This document shows positions 2,410 through 43,493 of a stretch of DNA of 50,174 nucleotides, one piece after another. The notes below the pieces were generated by a model. It was not told the DNA's origin, did no database searches, and worked only from the letters and a program-made list of their open reading frames with translations. How positions within the stretch are numbered: position 1 is the first letter of the stretch; the number at the start of each line of letters is the position of its first letter. Location: the NCBI GenBank assembly GCA_003695675.1, contig RFIA01000090.1, forward strand, positions 1 to 50,174, written 5' to 3'. The stretch is from Chloroflexota bacterium. Its GTDB lineage: Bacteria > Chloroflexota > Anaerolineae > Aggregatilineales > Phototrophicaceae. The position numbers and the translations under genes are program-made.

Positions 2410-2589
2410 TACTCATCTCAAGTGTCGGCGCAATAGATGGGGAAATTTGCCTGATGCTTTTTGCACCGGTAAACTTTTTGCGAAATCTTGCTGGGTTTGT
2501 TGAACCTGTTACATTTGGCCACAAAACGACATCGATCATTCAACCCATTTAGCAATGTTGTTACGCACAACGATAAGGAGTACCACACA

Positions 2590-5271
2590 ATGTATAGACC
2601 AAAGCTCAAATTGAGCGGCCTGTTCATCGGGCTGATGATTTTGATTGCGGCTTGCAGCAGTGGTGGAGGGACGACTGCGGCGCCGACATCGCCACCTCCA
2701 ACAGAAGAAGAGGCCGTTGAACCGACCGTTGAGCCAACAGTTGAACCAACTGAAGACACCTCGGCGCAAGTTGCTCAGGAAGCGACGACCTCTGCCGATG
2801 AGGGCGCAGCAGGAGGCGACGAAGGCGCGACTGTTGATGAAGGTACGGCAGGAGGCGATGAAGGCGCGACTGTCGATGAAGGTACGGCAGGAGGCGATGA
2901 AGGCGCGGCTGTCGATGAAGGTACGGCAGGAGGCGATGAAGGCGCGGCTGTCGATGAAGGTGCGGTTGAGGAAGAAACCCCGACTGAGGCGCCCACTGAG
3001 GAACCGACAGAGGCGGCTACCCCTACCCCAGTGCCGCAAGTTGTCGAAGCGGGCGAAACGATGATGGCAGGCAACGAATTTACATTCCGAGTCGAAGCTG
3101 CTCAAACTCGCCTTGTTGCCGATGGCGGTAGTGTGACAACATTGCTCGCATTCCTGTCGAGTCAAGATGGCGAGGGGATTTCGGGTGAGCGAATTCGTTT
3201 CGTGGTTGAATCCGGCGTTGCGACCTTTATTGATCCTACCGTTAATATCGAGCAGCTTGATCTTGAAGCACGCAAGATGCTCCCCGGTAATATCACTTAT
3301 GAAACGGGGAACGATATTGGCAATGGTGTTTACTTGGCGCGTCTACGCTCATCCGAAACTGCCGGTAATGTTCAGGTGTCGGCACAGTGGTTGACCTCGC
3401 CGGAATCACCAGTGCCACAAGTGTCTACCAATATCGAATTGGTCACTGCCGAGCAACTGATTGTGCGTGTTGATGACAATGAAATCCTCGCCGATGGCGT
3501 CGATTCGGCTGTGATTATTGCTTATGTTCTCGATGGCTTGAATCGTCCGGTTCAAGGCGCTGACGTCACCTTCCGTATTTTGGACGGCGCGGGCGAAATT
3601 CAAGAACTTGACTTTATACCCGATCTCGGTGGCGATGTGGTCGTCGATGGTGCGAGAGGCCGTTATGCGGCGTTGTATCGCAGCCCACGCACGCCGGGCA
3701 CAGCGACGATTGAAGTCTCGCTGCCGACAATTACCAACCCCATTCGCACGATGGTGACCATCGAGGCGGTTGAAGCCTCGACACTGAGTGGCTTTGCATT
3801 TCCTGAACGAGTGGCGCGTTTGCTGCCGCCACCGAATACACTCACCCGCGAGAATATCTCGACGATATTAGTTGTCTTGCGCGATGGCGAAGGCGAACTT
3901 GTTCCGGGTATGGAGAATGCGCTGGAAGCCGACGTCATCAGCGGGCCGGGAGAGATGCAAAGCAACACACCGGTAGAAATTAAATATGCGGATGGCACTG
4001 GTTCCGGTGTTTATCAATTTGCCTTCAAAGCAACAGAAATCACCGGGGAATCGATTATCGAAGTCACTAACCGTGAGGCGCCTAGCGTGCCGCGTGTGCA
4101 ATTTACGGTGCGCACTGTGACGGAAACTAGTCCGGGTATCATCGATCAAGCTGATATGCGCGTCTTTTCAGAAGAACCGTTCTTCTCCGATGGCGGAACC
4201 CTTGCGTTACTAGTAGCTATCGCGGCGGACGAAGACGGCAACATCGTCAATATACCGCCCGACCAACAGCAATTCTTACTGCTTTCAGGGCGGGGCACAT
4301 TGGTTGGCTGCGAGACAAACGATCCGTCAGTGCCATCCACTAGCGGACGTGTTTGTGACAATCCACCGATTGATTCCGGCATGACATCGGGCGACGAATT
4401 GCAGAGTGTTGTTCCCGGGATTGGCGGTACGGGTATTTACCTGACGAATTTCCGCGCTGGCAACGCCAACACCGACATCATCACCAATGTGCGAGCTGTT
4501 TTCAGCACAAATGCCGGTGATGTCGTGACACAAACAACGGGCATCAATCTTAATGCAGTGGAACTGCCCGAAATTGTGATCTTCCCAGAGCGCATCCCTG
4601 CCGGGCAGAATGCACGAGCCATCATCGACATTTTTGATGTCAATGATGAGCCGTTCGATCTCGGTGGTTTGATCTCGCGCTATGATGTGCAGATTGAGGA
4701 AGGGCCGGGAGAGATTCTCCGCACCGTCAATATCAATGGGGTGCCGATTGACTTGTCGCCAAAGAGCAACGGTGTCTATCCTGACTACCAACGCAATGAC
4801 AATCATAGTGGCGCGATTTTTGAGGTGCAGAGTACGACACCCGCCAGTCAAGACATTATCTTCAATATTGTTGATGATCTCGTCGCGGGCAATCCGACAA
4901 CTGAAAGTGTGCTGCAAATTGGTGACGAAACACAAATTCGCGTTGTCGTCTCGCCCGACCCAGCAGATGCAGGCGATGTGATTGAGGTCGTGGCTTTTGC
5001 CGAAGACGAATTCGGTCTCCCGGCTAAGGGGCACGAATTGCTCATCACGGTTGTTTCGGGCAGCGCGAATCTCGTCATGTCGGGTCAAATGTTTGACGAT
5101 GGCACGACTGAAGTATCGCCGGGCATCAGTGATGTGATCGCAAATGATGGCGTCTACGTCGGTGCTATTCGCACGACTGGTGTTGCACATGGCATACTCA
5201 CTATCCGCGTCACAGATTTGACGCCGCCTACTCAACCAGCGACGGAAATTCAAATTCCAATCGCACAATAA
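2590..5271 (+). CDS. Big-1-like repeat lipoprotein with acidic tandem-repeat stalk
   Basis: The start is ATG 2590, with AAGGAG nine bases upstream, giving 893 residues. The N-terminus MYRPKLKLSGLFIGL leads through a hydrophobic stretch to a lipobox (IAAC), so the mature protein should be lipid-anchored at Cys 19. A Ser/Gly/Thr/Pro segment with VEPT repeats and a 13-residue acidic repeat forms a stalk of roughly 130 residues. Several Ig-like strands follow, including a Big-1-type unit (LADGVDSAVIIAYVLDGLNR), and a conserved C-terminal module starting VSPDPADAGDV. It is collinear with the upstream paralogue over about 700 residues, so the pair arose by tandem duplication. The family suggests a cell-surface adhesin or protective layer; the ligand cannot be told. 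Promoter and terminator are both its own, so it is regulated apart from its sister. Confidence 0.8.
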   Translation: MYRPKLKLSGLFIGLMILIAACSSGGGTTAAPTSPPPTEEEAVEPTVEPTVEPTEDTSAQVAQEATTSADEGAAGGDEGATVDEGTAGGDEGATVDEGTAGGDEGAAVDEGTAGGDEGAAVDEGAVEEETPTEAPTEEPTEAATPTPVPQVVEAGETMMAGNEFTFRVEAAQTRLVADGGSVTTLLAFLSSQDGEGISGERIRFVVESGVATFIDPTVNIEQLDLEARKMLPGNITYETGNDIGNGVYLARLRSSETAGNVQVSAQWLTSPESPVPQVSTNIELVTAEQLIVRVDDNEILADGVDSAVIIAYVLDGLNRPVQGADVTFRILDGAGEIQELDFIPDLGGDVVVDGARGRYAALYRSPRTPGTATIEVSLPTITNPIRTMVTIEAVEASTLSGFAFPERVARLLPPPNTLTRENISTILVVLRDGEGELVPGMENALEADVISGPGEMQSNTPVEIKYADGTGSGVYQFAFKATEITGESIIEVTNREAPSVPRVQFTVRTVTETSPGIIDQADMRVFSEEPFFSDGGTLALLVAIAADEDGNIVNIPPDQQQFLLLSGRGTLVGCETNDPSVPSTSGRVCDNPPIDSGMTSGDELQSVVPGIGGTGIYLTNFRAGNANTDIITNVRAVFSTNAGDVVTQTTGINLNAVELPEIVIFPERIPAGQNARAIIDIFDVNDEPFDLGGLISRYDVQIEEGPGEILRTVNINGVPIDLSPKSNGVYPDYQRNDNHSGAIFEVQSTTPASQDIIFNIVDDLVAGNPTTESVLQIGDETQIRVVVSPDPADAGDVIEVVAFAEDEFGLPAKGHELLITVVSGSANLVMSGQMFDDGTTEVSPGISDVIANDGVYVGAIRTTGVAHGILTIRVTDLTPPTQPATEIQIPIAQ
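2797..2969 (+). repeat. 39-bp in-frame tandem repeat (about 4.4 copies)
   Basis: Units start at 2797, 2836, 2875 and 2914, with a partial fifth from 2953. Each encodes the 13-residue unit DEGTAGGDEGAAV or a one- or two-residue variant. Units 3 and 4 are identical and unit 2 differs from them at one base, which points to recent slippage or unequal exchange. Copy number is therefore likely to vary between strains. Confidence 0.9.
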
Positions 5272-10107: not shown

Positions 10108-10554
10108 TCATTCTCTGAAATTGACGACAACCCGCACCAAACCAAATTCGAGTTCATCTCCATTACGCAACCGATACGGTTGGTTCGGATGAATCTGATA
10201 CCCGTTGATGCGCGTTCCGTTGGTGCTGTTGAGGTCTTCGACAAATACCTGAAATTCGTGGCGTCGCAACACCGCATGTTTGCGCGAAACCCCTTTATTA
10301 GCGGCATCATAGGCCGTCAGGTCAAAGTAAAATTGTTCCAGCACGGTTTCGTCATCAACGCGACCGATAATGATTTCTGACCGAAGCAAAATACGGCGAC
10401 GTTTGAACGGGCGTTTCTCCCCGATGACCAGATTAATCTCTATCGGTTTGAGGTTGGCAGGCGCATTCGATGCTGGCACGACGTCTGTCGGTGGCAGCGA
10501 AGCCGCCCCAATATCTAACATGCCGGTTTGTGCTTTATTGACTTGGTTTGCCAA
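10108..10554 (-). CDS. FHA-domain protein
   Basis: The start is TTG 10554, preceded by AAGGA with an eight-base spacing. No in-frame ATG lies close by except a later one at residue 12. The 148-residue protein has an unstructured N-terminus of about 38 residues and then a complete forkhead-associated fold. Recognisable are IIGRVDDE, the phosphothreonine-binding GVSRKHAVL block and DLNSTNGTRINGYQI. FHA domains bind phosphothreonine peptides, so it likely answers to a Ser/Thr kinase encoded elsewhere. It lies upstream of the pspC pair but is separated from it by a repeat, and it is divergent from the bactofilin-like gene. Confidence 0.88.
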   Translation of the reverse strand: MANQVNKAQTGMLDIGAASLPPTDVVPASNAPANLKPIEINLVIGEKRPFKRRRILLRSEIIIGRVDDETVLEQFYFDLTAYDAANKGVSRKHAVLRRHEFQVFVEDLNSTNGTRINGYQIHPNQPYRLRNGDELEFGLVRVVVNFRE

Positions 10555-34181: not shown

Positions 34182-36158
34182 TTATCGGTATAAAAGCTCG
34201 ACGTATGGTTGCAACGATGTCAATTCGGTTGGCAGATTTCCTGTTGCAGATAGGATGAGCATTTCCCTAGCGCGAGTCATTGCCGTGAATAATTTTTTCC
34301 GTTGGCTGTCAATATACTCTGAATCCACTTCTTGGCCCAAGACTTGAAAATAGGTGTGCAAGTGCGGGATGAGAACCGCATGGAATTCTAATCCCTTCAT
34401 TTGATTGAAGGTTCCCACATAACACGCCTGATTGCGCAGATGCGCCCAATGTTTGATGATGCGTTTTGTATGACATAAGATGGCAATACTGCTCGGCATT
34501 ATGCCATTGTGTATCAGTATGTTGACCTCATCCTCAACCCTTTTTATTTCCTGCTCTACTCTGTTAACGAGTATCACTTTTGGTTTATCGCCGCTTGCGA
34601 GTTCATAAGATTGCAAGTCGGGTTTAACGATTTCCTCGGATTCGTCGCCTGTGTTGTCGATATTGATGAGGCTGTGTGCTGCTAGCGTAATTTCGCGAGT
34701 ACAACGGAACGGCACACGAAGAACACGAGTACGCCCACGGACTTCGATTCCTTTTTGTTTCCACGAAAATGCCCGAAATAAACTTTGGCTTGGGTCATCA
34801 CAAATAAATAGATCACCGTTGCTTTTTATCAATTTCAAGATCACTTTTATCCACGATGGGGCGAAATCTTGTGCCTCATCAATTAAAATAAAATCATAAG
34901 TATGACGCAGTGGGTGGCCTGTTTGCAATTCTGCTAAGGTGACAAAAGGAACATCTGACCAGTCTCGGATCGATTCGTTGTGATGGTAATCAATATATTG
35001 ATCCATAATGGTATTGATGACTTCACGTTTATTTTTGTTGAGAGAACGCCCTCTTCCCTTCCTTTCGACATTTAAATATTCGGCATTGTCATAAAGTTCC
35101 AATTCTTTGCGCCATTCAATCTCGGAAGCAACAAATTCAGGAGTCAGATTACTCTGTTCCATCAAGTCTGCAAACCAATTGCTCAACCATTCCTCAATTT
35201 TTTGCGGAGGACGCCACTTTGATCCAAGAATATTGCTGCATAGCTTATGGAAATTGACCACTTCGATACTCGGTATGTTACCTATTCGTTTTTCTAAATC
35301 CTTCACAAGGTCTTTGTTGAAGGCTAGTACCAAAATGTTGGCATCGGGATAATTTGCCGCGAGAAATTGCGCACGTTTGGCTAATACAAGCGATTTGCCA
35401 CTGCCAGCGACTCCCCGCACCAACCGTACAGATGTGTTCTGGCTGACCGCAATAGCCTCATCAGTCAGGAAATCATCCATTGGGGATGCTGCTGGTTTTA
35501 TTTTGATCGGTTGTTTGATGATTCTTTCCTGTTCAACCGTAATTGTGCCAACATCCTCGCCTTTGGCGTCATGTACGATCAATTCAGGGTCTAACACACC
35601 ACGTATGATATTCAAAATATCTTTATTGAGCGGTTTTTCTAATCGCCACTTAGCTGGAATAGATTGTAGTGCCTTTTCAAAGCGGTCAGGCTGCAAATCT
35701 TCTGAATTGAGCACTCGTCCTTTTTCCCAAATAAGTCCCTCCGCCTTTCTTTTCGTATCGTTATCTAAATGTACGATGATGGCAGCATACATCCATGGAA
35801 AGCGAAGGACTTCCCGTCCCCTGTATTTTTTCCTCAGTTCGGCACGAGCCTCAAAAGCATCAGCAAGATTGAGCGCATAGTCATGAGCAATCTCGACCGG
35901 GTTGTCTTCTTCTTCCTCTACCCCATCCATCCCATCTCGTATGATGGTCACTTTTTTCTGTGTGATGCTTACAATATTCTTCCAATCTTTGACTTCTAGT
36001 ACAATGACGCCACGTTCGGCTGAGACGACCACAAAATCGGGACGAGATCGGGTTGTCTTACTTCCCACAATTTCAGGTTCTGCCACGAAAAAATATCGAT
36101 TTGATGGTAAAGATTTCAATAATCTCTCGACGCGTTTTTCGCCATACGTTTGTGTCAT
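34182..36158 (-). CDS. NERD nuclease-domain plus UvrD/Rep-like helicase
   Basis: The 658-residue protein starts at ATG 36158 with AGGATG upstream. Residues 1-60 form a nuclease-related (NERD) domain with the PD-(D/E)xK triad Asp41, Glu55 and Lys57 (PDFVVV, then VLEVKDW). A superfamily-1 helicase follows, with Walker A GVAGSGKS (249-256), Walker B ILIDEAQDFA, motif III CDDPSQSLFRAF, and the C-terminal motifs GTFNQMKGLEFHAVL and LFTAMTRARE. Nuclease-helicase chains of this kind occur in DNA repair and in phage defence. The gene stands alone between glyQS and dnaG and is visibly more AT-rich than both, which suggests acquisition. A defence role is inference. Confidence 0.85.
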   Translation of the reverse strand: MTQTYGEKRVERLLKSLPSNRYFFVAEPEIVGSKTTRSRPDFVVVSAERGVIVLEVKDWKNIVSITQKKVTIIRDGMDGVEEEEDNPVEIAHDYALNLADAFEARAELRKKYRGREVLRFPWMYAAIIVHLDNDTKRKAEGLIWEKGRVLNSEDLQPDRFEKALQSIPAKWRLEKPLNKDILNIIRGVLDPELIVHDAKGEDVGTITVEQERIIKQPIKIKPAASPMDDFLTDEAIAVSQNTSVRLVRGVAGSGKSLVLAKRAQFLAANYPDANILVLAFNKDLVKDLEKRIGNIPSIEVVNFHKLCSNILGSKWRPPQKIEEWLSNWFADLMEQSNLTPEFVASEIEWRKELELYDNAEYLNVERKGRGRSLNKNKREVINTIMDQYIDYHHNESIRDWSDVPFVTLAELQTGHPLRHTYDFILIDEAQDFAPSWIKVILKLIKSNGDLFICDDPSQSLFRAFSWKQKGIEVRGRTRVLRVPFRCTREITLAAHSLINIDNTGDESEEIVKPDLQSYELASGDKPKVILVNRVEQEIKRVEDEVNILIHNGIMPSSIAILCHTKRIIKHWAHLRNQACYVGTFNQMKGLEFHAVLIPHLHTYFQVLGQEVDSEYIDSQRKKLFTAMTRAREMLILSATGNLPTELTSLQPYVELLYR

Positions 36159-41748: not shown

Positions 41749-41872
41749 ACGACTCTGCAAGTCACTTGCCCACAAACACCCAAATTTTTGATGGGACTTT
41801 TTCAAACTCTTGCCGCAACAACCAACTCTGATTAGACTGATGCTCTGATTGTTCACAAACACGGAGTCTTGG

Positions 41873-42646
41873 ATGCAGCACGTCAACATGCGCATCATGA
41901 TGCTGATATGGGCGCTACTCGCCGCGGCATGTTCGGCGGTCGGCGCGAACGATGCTGAGCGCACGGCAGTCGCGGAAAATGAGTCGCTCAAAACCCGAGT
42001 CGCAATCATCAACGCGACGGCCACCCACGAAATCGACCGTGTAGCCATTACGCTTGAACATGCGCAGACCGAAGTCCGCAATGTGGTCAACCAAAATCAA
42101 TTTCTCGTCGCGACTTTACTGCTGCGCGGCACGCCGACAGAAGGCATTATCGTCACGGCAGCAAATGTCGTCAACTTACCAGCGACGGCGACACCCGCGC
42201 CACCATCGCGCATTGTTGACCCCAATGCAACCGGCGAGGTCAATGCCGTTGTCTCGCCTGTATCGGCCCCGACTCCCGCAGGATTGCCGACGGTTGGTGC
42301 ACAGCCGATCCTGTCACAAATTGTGACCGCGACCGGAGTCGGCGATGATGACTGCGCCGTCAATCAAACATCACAGTTCACATCGGACACCGCCGAAATT
42401 TATGTCGTCGCCGTTGCAGACAACATCGTGCCCGGCACGCAAATCGCTTCGCGCTGGTTTCGTGAAAATGTGGAGGTCGCTGCCTTTGATTTCGTTCCCG
42501 ATTTTCGTATCGATGACGCTTGCATTTGGTTTTTCATCGACCAAACTGACGCTGAATTCACACCCGGTGAATGGAGCGTTCAGTTATCGATTAACGGCGG
42601 CAATGTCGGCGCACCGATGCTGTTCACAATTGTCGATGGGGGATAA
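41873..42646 (+). CDS. Lipoprotein with coiled-coil segment and C-terminal beta domain
   Basis: ATG 41873 has GGAG six bases upstream; a TTG at 41849 would displace the signal. The 257-residue product has a signal ending in the lipobox LAAAC (Cys 20). A helical segment (about 30-90) with heptad-like spacing follows (ENESLKTRVAIINATATHEI). Then comes a Pro/Thr/Ala-rich linker (LPATATPAPPS) and a globular domain with two Cys, opening DDCAVNQTSQF and ending GNVGAPMLFTIVDGG. The domain's strand pattern suggests an Ig-like fold, but no family is recognised. It is likely attached to the membrane's outer face. Confidence 0.65.
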   Translation: MQHVNMRIMMLIWALLAAACSAVGANDAERTAVAENESLKTRVAIINATATHEIDRVAITLEHAQTEVRNVVNQNQFLVATLLLRGTPTEGIIVTAANVVNLPATATPAPPSRIVDPNATGEVNAVVSPVSAPTPAGLPTVGAQPILSQIVTATGVGDDDCAVNQTSQFTSDTAEIYVVAVADNIVPGTQIASRWFRENVEVAAFDFVPDFRIDDACIWFFIDQTDAEFTPGEWSVQLSINGGNVGAPMLFTIVDGG

Positions 42647-42671: not shown

Positions 42672-43493
42672 CTAATCGTCTAATTTGAAGAAAAATTGAA
42701 TCGGCAGTTCACCAAGATGGACAAGGGCTTTATGTTTCAAGAGCACGGGCTTTTCGACCTGTAGCCGATGCCGGTCAATATAGGTACCATTCAATGAACT
42801 TAGGTCAGTAATTTGCCAACCATCCGTGTGTTTCGACAACATCGCGTGCTGCCGCGAAACACCATTTTCTCGCGCATTGTATTTGGCGAGGTCAATATCC
42901 GGTCGCATGTTGGTTTGTGGGTCATACCACCCAATCAATAATTTCTCTTTTATCAGATTGACTTTCAGTGTTTGTTCCAATGTTGGGAAGACCAATACAC
43001 TATAGTTATGCTCCACAAGATTACTCAACATGCCCCAAATCCGCTCACCTTGACTTTTCAACTCGCTAAGACGCAGGTCGTCCTCGTTCATCTGTGTTTC
43101 GCGTGTCAGGCGCTGAATGATGGGAAGTGAACTCAGCAGGCGTTTAAAGTTTTCATCATAAGAATTATCATCAATGAATGACAAGTGTTGGATGTGCCGG
43201 AGCAATAATGGCATCGGGCACCGGTCCACCTTGACGGGGATAATGCGTTTGCGGAGTCTTTGAAACTCACGCCATTCCGCCGAGACATTGGGCGATCTTG
43301 CTGCGGCATGAGAAATAATGAGAATCATTATCTCCGCAACGCGCAATTGTTGGTCAACATATTCGTCCCAATGCATACCTGCTGGGACATGATTGATGTG
43401 GTCAACCCATGTTTCGTAGCCTCGTGCTTGCAAGTCGCGAGATAATCTATCTGCAAATGTATCATCATTGGTAGCATGACAAATGAAGATCAT
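42672..43493 (-). CDS. TIR domain-FHA domain fusion protein
   Basis: The start is taken as ATG 43493, where the TIR fold begins (MIFICHATNDDTFADRLSRD). A TTG-initiated frame to 43586 would add 31 residues without a Shine-Dalgarno. The 273-residue protein has a TIR domain at 1-90, including YETWVDHINHVPAG, MILIISHAAARSPNVSAEW and RIIPVKVD, with Glu73 or Glu76 as the candidate NADase residue. A helical middle (about 100-165) follows, then an FHA domain (about 185-270) with GVSRQHAML, WQITDLSSLNGTYID and LVHLGELPI. TIR domains in bacteria often cleave NAD in immunity; FHA domains bind phosphothreonine. A phosphorylation-gated TIR effector is a reasonable inference. It converges on the lipoprotein gene. 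Confidence 0.85.
   Translation of the reverse strand: MIFICHATNDDTFADRLSRDLQARGYETWVDHINHVPAGMHWDEYVDQQLRVAEIMILIISHAAARSPNVSAEWREFQRLRKRIIPVKVDRCPMPLLLRHIQHLSFIDDNSYDENFKRLLSSLPIIQRLTRETQMNEDDLRLSELKSQGERIWGMLSNLVEHNYSVLVFPTLEQTLKVNLIKEKLLIGWYDPQTNMRPDIDLAKYNARENGVSRQHAMLSKHTDGWQITDLSSLNGTYIDRHRLQVEKPVLLKHKALVHLGELPIQFFFKLDD

Follow-up and report, generated by a model that had tools for sequence, protein, structure and literature searches.

Bacterial TIR enzymes are controlled by several kinds of sensor, NLR-type sensors among them. The known sensors also include Argonaute and STING (PMC11156904; PMC9402430) as well as SAVED (PMC9402430), and in TIR-STING activation is described as proceeding through filament assembly (PMC9402430). 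As set out in the parts of PMC11156904 on which we draw, self-association is mandatory for NAD-degrading TIRs, the catalytic residue of SPARTA is Glu77, a Trp46 mutant of the same system is almost inactive, and the adenine of NAD is stacked by an aromatic residue, which is Tyr105 in SPARTA and Trp in AbTir and SARM1; the same source states that TIRs may also serve as scaffolds. E77A is, in addition, the catalytic mutant of SPARTA in PMC10474274. For FHA domains, a key conserved Arg is reported to be critical for phosphothreonine recognition, its substitution abolishing FHA-dependent interactions (PMC11326605), and the FHA domain of Afadin, which is without two positive residues needed for phosphothreonine, is reported to bind Scribble independently of phosphorylation (PMC9355967). 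Both TIR and FHA are named among alternative effector domains in PMC8195603 (2021), and FHA appears as a sporadic effector, with PIN-FHA chains named, in PMC7159879 (2020). The portions of these two effector-network surveys cited here describe no TIR-FHA chain, and searches of open PubMed Central papers showed no description of FHA fused to TIR.

The gene analyzed here encodes such a chain. It is located on the minus strand of the window, by which we mean the whole stretch of 50,174 nucleotides under analysis (contig C168 of a 4.7-Mb genome in 421 contigs, labelled G000), and consists of an uninterrupted open reading frame of 273 amino acids plus stop with an ATG start at 43493; the TIR-FHA frames of two other loci, L074 and L076, start at the same Met. 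The TIR-FHA fusion proposed by an earlier sequence-only reading is borne out by Pfam, since both domains score above their cut-offs: TIR_2 (PF13676) at residues 2-120 (E 2.9e-25, 89.6 bits versus a cut-off of 28) and FHA (PF00498) at residues 201-261 (E 6.2e-13, 49.4 bits versus a cut-off of 20.7). A vWA, STAND or EAD part was not found in the protein with Pfam. An AlphaFold2 model based on 13 aligned sequences has a mean pLDDT of 89.8 and a pTM of 0.54, a value that leaves the placing of TIR relative to FHA unfixed. The layout of this model is included in the following features of the locus:

42672..43493, minus strand: TIR-FHA protein, 273 amino acids (open reading frame, Pfam, start Met shared with L074 and L076)
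43128..43493, minus strand: TIR domain, residues 1-122 (PF13676, model, fold matches)
43275..43277, minus strand: codon of Glu73, the predicted catalytic Glu (aligned to SPARTA Glu77, invariant in 15 of 15 proteins)
43017..43085, minus strand: linker helix, residues 137-159, after a low-confidence stretch at residues 128-135 (AlphaFold2 model)
42687..43004, minus strand: FHA domain, residues 164-269 (PF00498; model matches the FHA domains of OdhI, GarA and MDC1)
42927..42929, minus strand: codon of Trp189, at the site of the phosphothreonine-binding Arg (alignment, genome-wide FHA comparison)
41849..42646, plus strand: convergent lipoprotein-like gene without Pfam family (near TIR-FHA in the window, G022 and G456)

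With 38 TIR_2 matches, many of them in long open frames, the genome is TIR-rich for its 4.7 Mb, and it contains 30 FHA matches. Since chance alone would place a TIR in about a third of random 50-kb stretches of this genome, a TIR by itself is not rare and it is the combination on one chain that matters. Two further chains of the same genome carry both domains, one on contig C69 (TIR-FHA-FHA) and one on contig C180 (FHA-FHA-TIR). The case for a horizontal gain of the gene is weak, its GC content being 45.4% compared with 50.4% for the window, with 6.9% of stretches of equal size as low; a plasmid search returned three records, all with matches to TIR only.

By sequence, the solved TIR structures closest to the window domain are those of SPARTA TIR-APAZ (eight distinct chains at E values up to 0.1, the best being 0.00072). 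A structural comparison with active NADases, which had been proposed as a check on the initial idea of an NAD-consuming effector, turned out in its favor. The top fold matches of the modelled TIR were the Hydra TRR-2 TIR (Z 19.2) and SPARTA TIR-APAZ (Z 19.1, rmsd 1.7 over 125 residues, 23% identity), rows differing in Z by less than 1 being treated as tied, and the NADases SARM1 (Z 17.6) and AbTir (Z 16.4) followed lower in the list. Enzymatic TIR domains carry their catalytic Glu in helix alphaC. Two candidate catalytic residues, Glu73 and Glu76, had been put forward, and only the former can be retained. In the printed alignment, with residue numbers counted by hand, Glu73 pairs with Glu77 of SPARTA and Trp42 with its Trp46, and both residues are invariant in all 15 aligned TIR-FHA proteins, which represent 15 of the 21 distinct chains carrying both domains that the gathered loci contain. 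Glu76, on the other hand, is replaced by V, I and Y in three of seven compared proteins. Outside the 15-protein alignment the catalytic Glu is kept, as judged by eye, in the chains of C69, G015 and G436. It is lost in three of the 21 chains, namely one of G003 (G003a; Ile, from the alignment), that of C180 (Lys) and the FHA-FHA-TIR chain of G479 (Ser), the last two by eye, and some members of the architecture would thus not be enzymes. For the window protein, sequence and model together make the TIR domain look enzymatic, and an NADase half is credible.

The FHA half had been described as a full domain, which holds true for its fold but not for its phosphothreonine site. In the AlphaFold2 model the fold is complete and matches the FHA domains of OdhI, GarA and MDC1; the SRQH and LNGTY motifs noted earlier are both present in the translation, and Ser213 and His216 (SxxH) as well as Asn235 (N-G-T) are intact and do not vary among the 15 aligned proteins. 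However, the conserved Arg that follows a Gly where the third strand ends, the mark of a phosphothreonine-binding FHA, is missing, as Gly188 of this G-R motif is present and is followed by Trp189. Among the 30 FHA domains of the window genome, 29 have the Arg and the TIR-FHA protein of the window is the sole exception. We extended this comparison to 67 distinct FHA domains, obtained by a motif scan of loci gathered around TIR and FHA hits, in which linkage was defined by a TIR profile on the same open frame; the scan requires SRxH and N-G-T type motifs and thus leaves degenerate FHA domains uncounted. The Arg was retained in 19 and absent in five of the 24 TIR-linked domains, compared with none absent in the 43 others (Fisher P 0.0044, uncorrected for relatedness and to be taken as a guide only). 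The residues of the five Arg-less domains are W, W, W, L and K, and four of the five fall in one clade, so that they are not independent.

This clade, which has a support of 0.995 in a tree of 16 proteins, unites the window protein with those of G022, G453 and G456 and with two copies of G451. The Arg position is occupied by Trp in the window, G022 and G453 and by Leu in G456, and since both G451 copies retain Arg, its loss is not clade-wide. The three proteins that have Trp in common are only 40-47% identical to each other, and conservation of this residue at such distance suggests selection and not decay. In theory, Arg197, eight residues beyond Trp189 and also Arg in G022, could replace the lost Arg in the window protein and that of G022. 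Because the corresponding residue is Ser in G453 and Ala in G456, it is no general substitute. From these residues we infer that the FHA domain of the window protein no longer reads phosphothreonine and acts independently of phosphorylation.

The five neighbors of the gene that were scanned with Pfam encode a Nudix-GNAT protein, the lipoprotein-like protein without family, an ABC transporter, an esterase and a vWA protein. In line with the earlier remark that no sensor or nucleotide-signal synthase adjoins the gene, cyclase, SAVED, STING, SIR2, Argonaute and ThsA-like families were absent among these five. Further housekeeping genes around it, recognized by reading of the open reading frames, are dnaG-, rpoD- and pth-like, and since the copy in G022 is also found near relatives of the ABC transporter and pth-like genes of the window, the chromosomal place is probably old. 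The lipoprotein-like gene, whose product has a conserved C-terminal part, lies close to TIR-FHA in the window, G022 and G456, three of the seven loci that were compared. Of 61 related genomes, 47 have a match to it, so that it is widespread in the family, and a match over both TIR and FHA was obtained in three of the same 61 genomes, among the matches listed. We therefore rejected a functional tie to the TIR-FHA gene and regard the lipoprotein-like gene as a chromosomal neighbor. The second, stand-alone FHA gene to which the sequence-only reading had drawn attention is real (10108-10554, minus strand), but its value as a hint of a pair was not upheld, given a distance of 32 kb and a chance of about 27% for another FHA in a random 50 kb.

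Elsewhere in the window, a protein of the NERD-UvrD nuclease-helicase type is encoded at 34182-36158 on the minus strand, with a GC content of 43% compared with 50% for the window, and is a PADLOC candidate by its match to a NERD+UvrD profile (E 5.8e-53). At 44-2149 and 2488-5271 on the plus strand lie the genes of two large neighboring proteins that, on reading, seem to be related, the first with weak matches to Big_1 and Invasin_D3 under their cut-offs.

The reading that we consider most likely, with a probability of about 0.5, is that of an assembly-controlled TIR-type NAD+-cleaving enzyme with a phospho-independent FHA domain. As a monomer or a loosely held dimer the protein would be inactive, and it would become active when copies are brought together. 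Helix 137-159 would serve, together with the FHA domain, for assembly or docking. In the window member and the three close relatives in which Trp or Leu takes the place of the Arg, the FHA domain would bind a partner or another copy in a phosphorylation-free manner. The activated TIR domains might then pair, so completing an active site that they share, and cleave NAD+, probably in the service of defense or a stress response. What switches the protein on would thus probably be assembly or a partner, not phosphorylation.

The initial proposal had been that the FHA domain couples the TIR to a Ser/Thr kinase, which would phosphorylate a partner or the linker, whereupon the FHA domain would bind and the TIR be released or clustered. 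The intact and invariant Ser213, His216 and Asn235 fit such gating, as do the Arg kept in most TIR-linked FHA domains and the supply of kinases, with 19 Pkinase (PF00069) matches in the window genome and 21 to 80 in each of the 12 genomes with relatives (459 matches in all). However, Trp189 of the window protein and the Trp, Trp and Leu of its three close relatives weaken the proposal, contig C168 is without a Pkinase match, and a search for kinases near the TIR-FHA genes, suggested along with the proposal, placed none within about 40 kb in the 12 genomes, among the matches listed. A kinase link is therefore unsupported for the window copy, for which we consider phosphorylation gating, with an unlinked kinase as its possible source, unlikely; it may apply to relatives in which the Arg is kept, such as those of G028 and G451, and may suit the wider group while being wrong for the window member. 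We are similarly doubtful about a non-enzymatic adaptor tied to two-component signalling, in which the TIR would provide self-association and the FHA domain would be a docking module. A scaffold role of TIRs is known (PMC11156904), the Glu is missing in the three chains mentioned above, and a histidine kinase or receiver gene directly adjoins the gene for TIR and FHA in four of 16 loci (G005, G003, G027 and C180 of G000). Chance estimates for this adjacency are low (P 0.008 for 16 loci and 0.010 for 17), but they were calculated only once the loci had been seen and take 2.6% per gene as an assumed rate; receiver domains number from 72 to at least 150 per genome, and two-component genes are thus common here. 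Moreover, such a neighbor is absent from the window copy and from the short stretches around the G015 and G436 genes, with which the count becomes four of 18, and the invariance of Glu73 and Trp42 in the 15 aligned proteins argues against an adaptor.

Another option, modelled on Thoeris, is that the TIR domain might make an isomer of cyclic ADP-ribose, a signal nucleotide to which an unlinked effector would respond. The small size of the protein, the matches of ThsB profiles to the relatives at L074, L077 and L116 and the occurrence of PF08937 among relatives are consistent with this, and the 38 TIR matches of the genome make unlinked partners possible. Nevertheless, no ThsB profile matches the window protein itself at E 0.001 and a ThsA-like family is absent among the five neighbors scanned, and we regard this explanation as improbable. 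It would likewise be a long shot to see in the Arg-less FHA domain a decoy or bait, that is, a former phospho-reader that senses an invader protein or the cell's own signalling state and leaves the killing to the TIR; if this were true, an FHA-rich bacterial family would use TIR-linked FHA mimics as guards of its phospho-signalling network.

Chains with both domains recur in other genomes. In 154 genomes of the order, with at most 16 candidates scored per genome, 15 places in 12 genomes span TIR and then FHA, all of them in the window's own family, among the matches listed. When 400 genomes sampled evenly across the phylum were searched, six candidates being scored in each, three places in two genomes spanned both domains, and both genomes again belong to this family. 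Two short patterns, run against 84,980 species genomes, yielded 13 loci, of which four are full length, all four from Anaerolineae or Chloroflexi. Confinement of such chains to the window's family is nonetheless ruled out, since G436, from another family of the same order, has an FHA-first chain (FHA-TIR, L131:1468-2283) with both Glu and Arg kept. This chain had appeared in the 154-genome search by its TIR part only, and more chains of its kind may hide among the TIR-only rows.

The loci of the relatives offered several observations in their own right. In G003, a TIR-FHA gene with Ile in place of the Glu, a gene for a single receiver domain and a second TIR-FHA gene, whose product has the Glu and carries Lys at the Arg position of its FHA domain, follow one another at L161:357-2483 in what looks like one operon. 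The FHA-FHA-TIR genes of C180 (L072:8613-12292) and G479 (L158:7309-9631), both by eye without the Glu, are each adjoined by a DUF4340 gene, and in C180 a gene for a GAF-PAS histidine kinase lies 66 bp after the FHA-FHA-TIR gene. Near TIR-FHA in G456 there is a gene pair of the two-transmembrane effector type (DUF4231 and SLATT_1, L076:5956-7705). Two related proteins of 143 and 127 amino acids (L069:10445-10876 and L076:3581-3964), 52% identical, are encoded near TIR-FHA in G022 and G456, respectively; they are STAS-like by eye and have no Pfam match. In G453, a gene for a protein of 304 amino acids with a DUF3592 match (L164:2191-3105) begins 3 bp past the TIR-FHA stop on the same strand.

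Since some TIR-FHA chains keep the Arg and others have lost it, they would make it possible to compare directly how one type of enzyme is controlled with and without phosphorylation. Among known systems, SPARTA TIR-APAZ is similar to the window TIR in having the same catalytic Glu and a Trp at the position of Trp46, in being the nearest solved TIR by sequence and in ranking among the nearest folds. It differs in having APAZ where the window protein has FHA, and no Argonaute family is present among the five neighbors scanned, so that the pairing of APAZ with a short Argonaute that marks SPARTA is not seen at the window locus. Consistent with this, the PADLOC matches of the window protein fall in its TIR part, the TIR profiles of Argonaute systems reaching residue 134 at most. 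The ThsA gene beside ThsB that characterizes Thoeris is also not seen among the neighbors that were scanned or read. The NADases SARM1 and AbTir resemble the window protein in their TIR fold, a likeness that derives from predicted structure, and have regulatory domains other than FHA. On the FHA side, the window domain shares the fold of OdhI, GarA and MDC1 and keeps SxxH and N-G-T, but is unlike them in its Trp for the phosphothreonine-binding Arg, in a long loop before SRxH and in its fusion to TIR. Although Afadin is an animal cell-contact protein, in whose description in the cited parts of PMC9355967 TIR is not mentioned, its FHA domain is similar to that of the window protein in that the positive residues for phosphothreonine are missing, and its partner binding is reported to be phosphorylation-free (PMC9355967).
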